Notes under the pieces: model-generated
Database searches by the model: none
Told to the model about the DNA's origin: nothing
What the model saw: the letters and a program-made list of their open reading frames with translations, nothing else
NCBI GenBank assembly: GCA_014240375.1
Contig: JAAZXB010000001.1
Location: 1 to 58,579 of the forward strand
Length of the DNA: 58,579 nt
Origin: Planctomycetota bacterium
GTDB lineage: Bacteria; Planctomycetota; UBA8108; UBA1146
Reading direction: 5' to 3'
Part shown: positions 3,971-6,183 of the stretch, one piece after another
Layout of the letters: every line of letters starts with the position of its first letter
Numbering within the stretch: the first letter of the stretch is position 1
Made by a program: the position numbers and the translations under genes

Positions 3971-4479
3971 GATTGCTGAAAATACTTGCAACATAACTCT
4001 GACTCCATCCGACCGTTTGGATTTCATGTCCATCTAAATACCCCCGTCACAGACGTATTCCCACCCGGATATAGTCAGGAGGTAAATCCCAACTTGCCCG
4101 TGATTCATCTGTCGTCTGCCTACACTTCCTCGAACCAGTGGGCGATAGAACTCGGCCACTACTCGCTTACTATCAATAAGTAGCCTCACGCCACATCTTG
4201 TCTATATATATTCATGATCGGCTACATGGTAGATCCAGATTGGATACTTATCTTGCATGGCAGGAATGGTCGACATGACGCTGGAGTCACCATCCAGTAC
4301 TCCTGGGAGGACCCAAGGAGTTCACGGTTCGCTGGACCCGATCATCGATGAATGACTTCGGATCGCTCACGGAATGGTCAGGATGGGATGGTCAGGATGG
4401 TCAGGATGGTCAGGATGGGATGGACAGTGCCACTCACCACCCCCTGCAGGAGCGACTCGCCCACCATCTGGGATTCGCT
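3971..4479. other. Non-coding gap upstream of the PKD/HYR lipoprotein
   Basis: About 500 nt with no convincing gene. It should hold the promoter of the minus-strand lipoprotein; an AT-rich stretch around 4198-4215 is the only obvious promoter-like composition. It also holds a 9-bp tandem repeat (4374-4423). Short plus-strand frames here run antisense into the thioredoxin-like gene and have no family resemblance. Confidence 0.5.
4374..4423. repeat. 9-bp tandem repeat (ATGGTCAGG)
   Basis: Exact units ATGGTCAGG lie at 4374-4382, 4388-4396, 4397-4405 and 4406-4414, with partial ATGGG units at 4383 and 4415. The array sits about 60 nt beyond the stop codon of the thioredoxin-like gene and about 400 nt upstream of the lipoprotein start, between two minus-strand genes. 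Its function is unknown; slippage-prone repeats of this kind can vary in copy number. Confidence 0.8.
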
Positions 4480-5442
4480 TCAGCGGCGCCGTGCCGCCAT
4501 GATCTTGTCGGCAAAAGCCTGCAGATGCGAAGCGATTCGAGCGACCTGAGCATCATCGAGTTTGCTACGTGTCTTCCCGATCATCTCGATGAAATGAGCG
4601 CGTTCCCCTTCGGAGACGGGACAACCGATGTTCCCCTCCGGTCCATCTCCCGTGATCAGTTTTTTTCCTGATCCATCGAGGATCGCCATCCAGGGGATTC
4701 CGCCACGCTCCGTTTCGCGGATTCTCGCTGCCACTTCTTTACCGTGGATCATCCGGTCGGTATCGATCTTGAGGTCGATGTAGTCGTGCTTCATCAACGC
4801 AGCCACTTCGGGGGTGCCGAGGAACTCCTCGAGCTTGCCACACCATCCTCACCATGGCGCACCGAGGTGAAGGAGAATCTTTCTTCCATCCTTGCTCGCC
4901 TGCTTCAAGGCCGTTGCCAGGACCTGTTCCGCATCCACAGGAGGAGACTTCTGTGCCTGCAGGAACTTTTCCACCTTGACGCTATCATGGTGATCCCCCT
5001 CTTCCAGATCCCCGGTATTCTGATGGGCGACGACCTTGCCATCTCCATCGAGCACCGTGATGTAGGGAACACCCTTCTTCTTGATCATGGCACCGTACCC
5101 GTCGACGAGTCCGATGTTCTTGTCGAATTTCCCGATATCGACCTTCACCACCTCGTATTCGTAGCGGATGGTTCGAGAGACGGTTCGATCCTTCTTGAAG
5201 AACTCATCGAGTTTCACGCACCAGCCACACCAGTTGCCACCGTAGACGACCAGTACCCGCTTGTGTTCCTTCTTCGCCCGCTCCACTGCAGCGGCGATGT
5301 CAGCGGCGGCATCGGCCTCGGTATCGTAGACGGGAGGTGCCTTCTTCTGCGCCTTCTCAGACTCTTGCGCCAGCGAGAGGGATCCCGAGTTGAGCGAGAG
5401 TATCAGCCCCATGATGACCAGTAGTTGTCTTCGAATATTCAT
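4480..5442 (-). CDS. Secreted double-thioredoxin protein, probable selenoprotein (UGWC motif)
   Basis: The frame from the ATG at 5442 encodes a signal peptide (about residues 1-25) and a first thioredoxin-like domain with C72-G-W-C75 and cis-Pro P126. A TGA codon follows at 4849-4851, and the same frame continues 122 more codons to 4480. Those codons complete a second thioredoxin domain with cis-Pro P250. The TGA falls exactly on the first Cys of the second redox motif: domain 1 reads NWCGWCVKL and domain 2 reads PW-TGA-GWCGKL. Read through, the protein has 320 residues with Sec198-G-W-C201. A bSECIS-like hairpin starts right after the TGA. Known thioredoxin-fold selenoproteins carry UxxC motifs. 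The alternative is a nonsense mutation that leaves a 197-residue protein. It is probably a periplasmic disulfide or peroxide redox protein. Confidence 0.72.
4813..4848 (-). promoter_or_regulatory. Candidate bacterial SECIS element
   Basis: On the minus strand, directly 3' of the in-frame TGA (4849-4851), the RNA can fold an upper stem CGAGG/CCUCG (4827-4831 with 4818-4822) closed by the loop AGUU. A lower helix GGUGU/GCACC (4840-4844 with 4813-4817) can also form. The apical loop starts 22 nt after the UGA and has G as its second base. Bacterial SECIS elements are usually described with a 16-37 nt spacing and a G in the first two loop bases, so the match is good. The equivalent bases of domain 1 (CTC GAT GAG TTC TTC) cannot form this stem. 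No folding programme was run. Confidence 0.55.
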
Positions 5443-5694
5443 CGGTCTCCGATCCTTTCCCTGTGATCCGGTCCCTGTTCCACCCGATCACGGTCCCACC
5501 CGATCACCCTGCAGTTACTTCTCATCTGCCACGATCGTCTGCAATGTACTCCCCCGACCGTTGTGGATACAGGATTATCAGCGGCGGGAGGGGTTCCTCG
5601 TCGACATCGCCCCTTCCAGGCCCGCAGTGACAGAGAGTACTGGAATGAACCTGCTTTTTGGAGGATGCTGCCCGCTACAGAAGGGCAGCAGAAG

Positions 5695-6183
5695 ATGGAC
5701 GACCGATGGATCGATGAGCAGATCGACAACTGGGTCTCGGACTTTCTCATCGACGATGCGGGAGATCGAGTCAGCAGTGAGGTTGTACCCCATGCCCAGG
5801 CGATCCTCACCACCTTCCTGCGACACGCCTGTTCCATCCGGGGGATCTCTCCGGAGGGCATCGAAGAAAGTGATGTAAGGGCGGGTCTCCTCGACGGCTT
5901 GAAGTCGATATCGATTTCGAATCCGGTTCAGGAACAGGTCCCGGCTCTCATCGGTGAATTTCTTGCCGACCTCACGAGGCGGGGTCGGCTCGCGGATGGA
6001 GAATCTCATCAGCGAGTCATCGATGTGCTGCGAGATGAATATCTGCGCACGACCCGCTCCGAGGTGAAGTCCATCGAGAGGGTTGCCTCGAAGATCGGGC
6101 GCAATGAGCCTTGCCCCTGCGGTAGTGGCAAGAAGTACAAGAAGTGCTGCATGAACTTACTCGATACAGATCTGCACAACTGA
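5695..6183 (+). CDS. SEC-C motif protein
   Basis: A 162-residue protein ending in a SEC-C zinc-binding motif ([17 protein letters not shown]), the module that ends SecA and many small accessory proteins. The part before it is acidic and mostly helical and is not recognised. The start is uncertain. The ATG at 5695 gives a protein opening MDDRWIDEQ and has a GAAGGG sequence about 11 nt upstream. The frame stays open further upstream to 5563, but that extension is Arg/Pro-rich and looks non-coding. It lies 22 nt before the VOC gene on the same strand, so the two may be co-transcribed. The role is unknown; SEC-C motifs usually bind zinc and mediate protein contacts. Confidence 0.7.

Follow-up and report, generated by a model that had tools for sequence, protein, structure and literature searches.

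The reading frame and its domains

The window, by which we mean the whole stretch of 58,579 nt that was analysed, belongs to a Planctomycetota genome of 3.39 Mb in 120 contigs that is 94.8% complete. On its minus strand lies a reading frame of 320 residues (4480..5442), which starts with the ATG at 5442 and is interrupted at a single point, by a TGA at codon 198 (4849..4851, minus strand). This TGA is preceded by 197 sense codons and followed, in the same frame, by 122 codons and the terminal TGA at 4482-4480; the first-pass annotation had described the same succession of 197 codons, TGA and 122 codons, though without giving a strand. Read as selenocysteine (Sec), codon 198 would supply the first residue of a UGWC motif, and a TGA occupies the same codon in 23 genes including the window gene. 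An annotation ending at this codon would lose more than one third of the protein.

The frame begins with a likely signal peptide (residues 1-26, MNIRRQ...SLSLAQ, 5365..5442), judged by eye; the AlphaFold2 model has its low-confidence part at residues 1-30. Thioredoxin domain 1 follows at residues 39-147 (5002..5328), where it is matched by Thioredoxin_7 (PF13899, residues 46-132) and by PDB 3fk8 (residues 39-147, E 4.5e-19). It contains a CGWC motif at residues 72-75 (5218..5229) and, at P126 (5065..5067), the cis-Pro position, which is invariant in the 65-row alignment and for which the cis state is taken from the fold. Thioredoxin domain 2 covers residues 167-291 (4570..4944, with helices and strands in the model) and is matched by Thioredox_DsbH (PF03190, residues 159-262), by Thioredoxin_7 and by PDB 3ira (residues 167-255, E 4.7e-4). 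Its UGWC occupies residues 198-201, of which Cys201 (4840..4842) is the second member of the redox pair by sequence and homologue alignment, and its own cis-Pro position is P250 (4693..4695), more than 90% conserved in the same alignment and likewise assigned as cis from the fold. All of these features are on the minus strand.

In the read-through protein both Thioredoxin_7 and Thioredox_DsbH match over two stretches. PF13899 passes its curated cut-off of 27 with 82.5 bits over its two stretches, and PF13098 reaches 42.9 against 27 for the whole protein, although its best and only significant stretch lies in domain 1 (56-142), domain 2 being matched by PF03190. The AlphaFold2 model, built from the 65-row alignment with Cys substituted for Sec, has two thioredoxin-like folds with a mean pLDDT of 93.1; residue 198 directly precedes a helix (199-208) and P250 directly precedes a strand (251-255). 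Thus the PF03190 match, the model and P250 all bear out the earlier proposal that the codons after the TGA complete a second thioredoxin fold with its own cis-Pro. The best 50 of 1185 Foldseek matches contain no solved structure with good coverage of both domains, the highest TMq being 0.37.

Short repeats of the type GGATGGTCA lie directly downstream of the gene (4374-4425, plus strand). On its other side a divergent ORF (5563-6183, plus strand) has a C-terminal metal-binding motif, which we take to be of the SEC-C type, a name unrelated to selenocysteine. No gene noticed next to the window gene points to a partner.

The codon and its surroundings in relatives

Of 7996 candidates scored in a protein search, 751 qualified as homologues at E ≤0.001, and the best 120 of these were listed. 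Position 198 is Cys in all 112 full-length proteins among these best 120 of 751, and in 103 of them the motif is CGWC, in agreement with the earlier placement of the TGA at the first redox Cys of domain 2. The other eight end exactly before position 198 (...GAPW), where their gene callers stop; homologues ending before this codon had been named by the first-pass annotation as a refuting outcome, but the 112 continue with Cys. The eight include the window's own protein; identity over the aligned region is 67-77% for the remaining seven. The source names on three of them (four with P0114) read 'thioredoxin family protein' or 'hypothetical protein', hence annotations without a selenoprotein call. 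The short-form cluster P0002 holds six member sequences on 16 contigs, possibly including re-deposits.

At the DNA level eight related loci were found, with TGA in L019, L020, L022 and L024, TGC in L021, L023 and L025, and L026 running off the end of its contig. L019 and L020 are carried by genomes G004 and G003, which are graded as the same genus as the window genome. Matches at E ≤1e-30 occur in 39 of 392 sampled Planctomycetota genomes (41 matches), and 22 of the 41 contain the TGA, in 21 genomes that span nine different family codes. The non-redundant set consists of 23 TGA genes (22 from the 392-genome sample and one from another collection) and 20 Cys genes that read TGC or TGT at the site, such that both TGA and Cys codons are found where the first-pass annotation had suggested comparing homologues. 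Left out before these counts were the partial L026; L028, L029 and L061, which duplicate L019, L020 and L022 by contig or by sequence; and L075, whose frame breaks at the site. The break in this last homologue, from genome G278, falls right at the active site (APWSSSATAT) and reflects either an assembly error or decay. A tree of 68 rows made by a quick method has six changes between Cys and Sec, of which the starred branches force only one; its P rows are Cys forms by selection, because their gene callers stop at the TGA.

The part after the TGA appears to evolve under purifying selection. The pN/pS ratios before and after the TGA, which are rough because some synonymous distances are near saturation, are 0.24 vs 0.25 for the window gene and L019, 0.27 vs 0.24 for the window gene and L020, 0.22 vs 0.08 for L019 and L020, and 0.25 vs 0.30 for L079 and L081; four other pairs give 0.43/0.36, 0.20/0.19, 0.57/0.53 and 0.55/0.35. 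The ratio after the TGA is therefore similar to or below that before it in seven of eight gene pairs, and slightly above in one or two, which argues against decay.

The TGA is followed by a predicted bacterial SECIS hairpin (4817..4832, minus strand) with a 6 bp stem and the loop AGUU (4826-4823), which starts 22 nt after the TGA. Its minimum free energy is -11.8 to -13.8 kcal/mol. The published bacterial model specifies a loop of 3-9 nt with G in the first two places, a stem of 4-16 bp, a distance of 16-37 nt from the UGA and a minimum free energy ≤ -7.5 (PMC13188914), and the hairpin lies within it by direct comparison; the first-pass annotation had recommended a SECIS prediction. A narrower test asked for a loop that has G and then G or U and begins 20-26 nt downstream, and for a stem of at least 6 bp. 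It picks out 22 of the 23 TGA genes, with stems of 6-9 bp and a loop start 22-25 nt after the TGA, vs 0 of 20 Cys genes. Because the two groups also differ in ancestry and in the residues that they encode locally, part of this contrast is shared ancestry. The one TGA gene outside this range, L072, has a stem of only 4 bp. In 20 of the 23 the loop sequence is AGUU and lies exactly 22 nt from the TGA, and the six innermost positions are paired in each of these 20. Two pairs of the stem have exchanges on both sides, from G-C to C-G and from C-G to U-A, in one gene each. The codons that form the hairpin in L022 and L024 are different ones.

Not every measure is as selective. A broad test close to the review's model cannot separate TGA from Cys genes, because 11 of the 20 Cys genes also give a hairpin at ≤ -7.5, in scattered places. 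The stem of the window gene is reached by 9.6% of synonymous recodings (P 0.096), and P falls below 0.05 in only nine of the 23 TGA genes, related genes not being independent. By a loose test, 109 of the 2013 TGA codons that the window has over all six frames are followed by a comparable hairpin. On these figures (109 of 2013 by the loose test, and P 0.096) we rejected the hairpin alone as proof of Sec. Nine further TGA codons in the window have open flanks and a hairpin by the loose test, with no UxxC or CxxU in the adjoining context, and Rfam gave no match within the window at the gathering score.

The GAG codon of residue 206 spans the stem and the loop of the hairpin. Residue 206 is Glu in 20 of 23 TGA genes vs seven of the 112 Cys proteins (from the best 120 listed), in which Asp and Ala prevail. 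We infer that the RNA element fixes this residue as Glu, the alternative being shared descent; this may be a case in which an RNA element within a coding region determines an amino acid.

What stands in front of the Sec domain varies among the 23 TGA genes. Domain 1 has CxxC in 11 of them, CGWS in L034 and no CxxC in L074, L076, L078 and L082. In L077, L079, L080, L081, L083, L084 and L086 there is a TlpA/Redoxin-like N-terminal domain, supported by Pfam for four of the seven, with a second TGA of its own (UGPC or UPPC), and the motif of the Sec domain is UGWC, USWC or UGYC. These seven are predicted to be double-Sec proteins. L077 and L079-L081 have a degenerate middle stretch between the two domains, and by a broad test a model hairpin follows the N-terminal TGA at five of the seven sites, with none for L079 and L080. 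Domain 1 seems, by this comparison, dispensable or exchangeable. The tandem CGWC/UGWC arrangement of the first-pass annotation thus stands as described for the window gene, while relatives also have other partners for the Sec domain.

Selenocysteine machinery and readings of the TGA

All four components of the Sec machinery that the first-pass annotation had proposed to look for are present in the window genome: selA (E 4.4e-159), selB (E 5.9e-117), the tRNA-Sec gene selC (found by both Rfam and ARAGORN) and selD. The selD gene itself has a TGA (L001:2988-2990) in the context SCAG-TGA-AAK, which we take to be the Sec-site motif SCAG-U-AAK, and SelD of this genome is accordingly a predicted selenoprotein. 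selA, selD and tRNA-Sec adjoin one another on contig C32. Across the sample, selB exceeds its cut-off in all 21 TGA genomes and in 15 of the 17 Cys genomes and fails to reach it in G278, whose site is unreadable. selA at E 1e-60 is found in 18 of 21 TGA genomes, 15 of 17 Cys genomes and G278; at that threshold it was not found in the TGA genomes G005, G009 and G192, which are 82, 91 and 77% complete. Only two of the 39 genomes, G363 and G375 (96% complete), have neither selA nor selB at E 1e-60, and both use Cys. The machinery agrees with Sec but discriminates weakly because selA is so widespread, occurring in 241 of the 392 sampled genomes; with selA and selB together in 15 of 17 Cys-form genomes, co-occurrence was set aside as a discriminating test.

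If codon 198 were a true stop, the gene would be a pseudogene or a shortened single-domain thioredoxin created by point mutation of a Cys codon, with domain 2 decaying. Gene callers do end there, eight of the 120 best-listed homologues stop at ...GAPW, and the 197-residue product would contain the complete domain 1. We nevertheless consider this highly improbable: 23 genes retain the TGA, the 22 from the genome sample spread over nine family codes, the frame stays open behind it with pN/pS like that of the preceding part over eight gene pairs, Cys201 and the UGWC context are kept, and the window genome has Sec genes. The point mutation of a Cys codon named earlier as the alternative, or a sequencing error, is unlikely given this conservation of the TGA and the purifying selection after it. 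There is also very little to recommend decoding as Cys, Trp or some other ordinary residue, by a change of code or leaky read-through. The part after the TGA would evolve like coding sequence in that case too, which leaves the residue unnamed, but TGA is an ordinary stop here: it ends 10 of 18 long ORFs (picked from 42) as well as the window gene, selD and DsbD. Cys at the site in every full-length listed homologue, the SECIS-like hairpin in 22 of 23 TGA genes vs none of 20 Cys genes, and the presence of selB in all 21 genomes that have the TGA form speak against an ordinary residue.

A different question is whether Sec is inserted but the UGA serves mainly as a selenium switch, such that low selenium yields a secreted single-domain CGWC thioredoxin and high selenium the two-domain selenoprotein, with both products mattering. 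The stop comes after a complete domain 1 that has a likely signal peptide and CGWC, and therefore the short product could fold. However, it would be without a disulfide site in L074, L076, L078, L082 and L034, because domain 1 in these genes has no CxxC or, in L034, CGWS, and in the seven other genes the first TGA lies inside the TlpA-like active site; we regard such a switch as unlikely. From sequence comparison we consider it very likely that the TGA at codon 198 is decoded as selenocysteine. The product would be 320 residues long, predicted to be exported, and composed of two thioredoxin domains with CGWC in the first and UGWC in the second. Part of the extracytoplasmic redox machinery of Planctomycetota is probably mis-annotated, because gene callers end these proteins at the UGA and so leave out the Sec domain.

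Proposed function and known systems

In the thioredoxin fold the first residue of CxxC is the nucleophile. Sec198, delivered as Sec-tRNA at the UGA by hairpin-bound SelB, would then carry out the nucleophilic attack, with Cys201 as the resolving residue. Sec at the nucleophile position would be expected to attack disulfides faster and to form a selenenylsulfide with Cys201. The protein would act as a disulfide reductase or isomerase outside the cytoplasmic membrane, and our guess is that the membrane reductase DsbD would supply its electrons. Domain 1 would be a helper: some TGA relatives keep its CxxC and others lack it, and in still others a TlpA-like domain, itself with a TGA, takes its place or stands in front of it. 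The window genome has one DsbD match over the cut-off, and this gene (L088:2542, contig C11) has a TGA at the first Cys of its gamma-domain motif (FTGHT-TGA-QNC) with a GGU-loop hairpin 23-24 nt downstream. The likely electron donor is thus a predicted selenoprotein too, and of a kind already known.

For the relatives as a whole, we moderately favour a Planctomycetota-wide family in which the Sec thioredoxin domain is fixed and the N-terminal partner is exchanged: it can be an all-Cys domain with CGWC, be dead, or be TlpA-like and bring in a second Sec. The last would form a two-Sec relay in one exported chain; a Sec-bearing DsbD would be the feeder and the SECIS hairpin would dictate Glu206.

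Selenoproteins with UxxC in a thioredoxin fold are already known. A UxxC thiol:disulfide interchange protein (PF13098) is included in Table 1 of PMC13188914 (2026), and Trx-like 2 (cd02953, UxxC) appears in Table 2 of PMC2398784. These share with the window protein the thioredoxin fold, the thiol:disulfide interchange class and Sec as the first residue of UxxC, but they are listed with one motif and one Sec, whereas in the window family either two domains lie in tandem and only the second bears Sec, or a TlpA-like domain contributes a further TGA. Some of the marine sequences that were classed as Trx-like 2 in 2008 may be pieces of the window family. By its own count the table in PMC13188914 covers 119 families or subfamilies, among them also TsoB and Trx7/PDZ; it lists neither a tandem CGWC/UGWC protein nor a TlpA-UGWC fusion, and the word 'planctomycet' is absent from the text. 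Selenoproteins are reported for two planctomycetes, in general terms, in PMC4807772, and the text of PMC12013277 has none of the terms sought for the window family. Among literature titles and abstract openings, drawn largely from outside the subscription journals, none describes a tandem or TlpA-fused Sec family. The earlier judgement that UxxC Sec is known while the tandem layout is unrecognised therefore agrees with the table in PMC13188914 and, for the former, with PMC2398784. We consider the conserved predicted selenoprotein family real, and its tandem and TlpA-fused architectures unlisted in the 119-family table.

The window protein scores over the cut-off of no NCBIfam model, and the same is true of L083 and L079. 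TsoB, a Rhodanese/DsbD fusion-like selenoprotein (NF045694), shares a DsbD-like thioredoxin region, but its Sec motif is UxxxxU and the window protein reaches 55.2 bits against a cut-off of 805. The Trx7/PDZ domain-containing selenoprotein (NF041199) has a Thioredoxin_7 domain by name, with the motif CxxU, and is matched at 13.8 bits, below its cut-off of 300. ResA-like WAxxUGC proteins (NF041054) and AhpC-TSA-fold UxxC selenoproteins (PF00578) are similar to the N-terminal domain found in the double-TGA relatives; L083 scores 51.8 bits with NF041054, below the cut-off of 300, and the descriptions consulted for the two groups mention no fused UGWC domain. DsbH, a single-domain protein, resembles the window protein at the level of the domain in sequence and fold (NF043050; PDB 2ju5; PF03190), but it has CxxC rather than UGWC, and the window protein is below its model's cut-off (54.2 bits against 190). 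The same two-domain layout is found in the tandem all-Cys thioredoxin family proteins of planctomycetes (P0003 and kin, 42-56% identical among the full-length matches listed), which differ in having Cys at the Sec position. With Cys and Sec versions of one architecture available, the effect of Sec in a thioredoxin could therefore be tested side by side.
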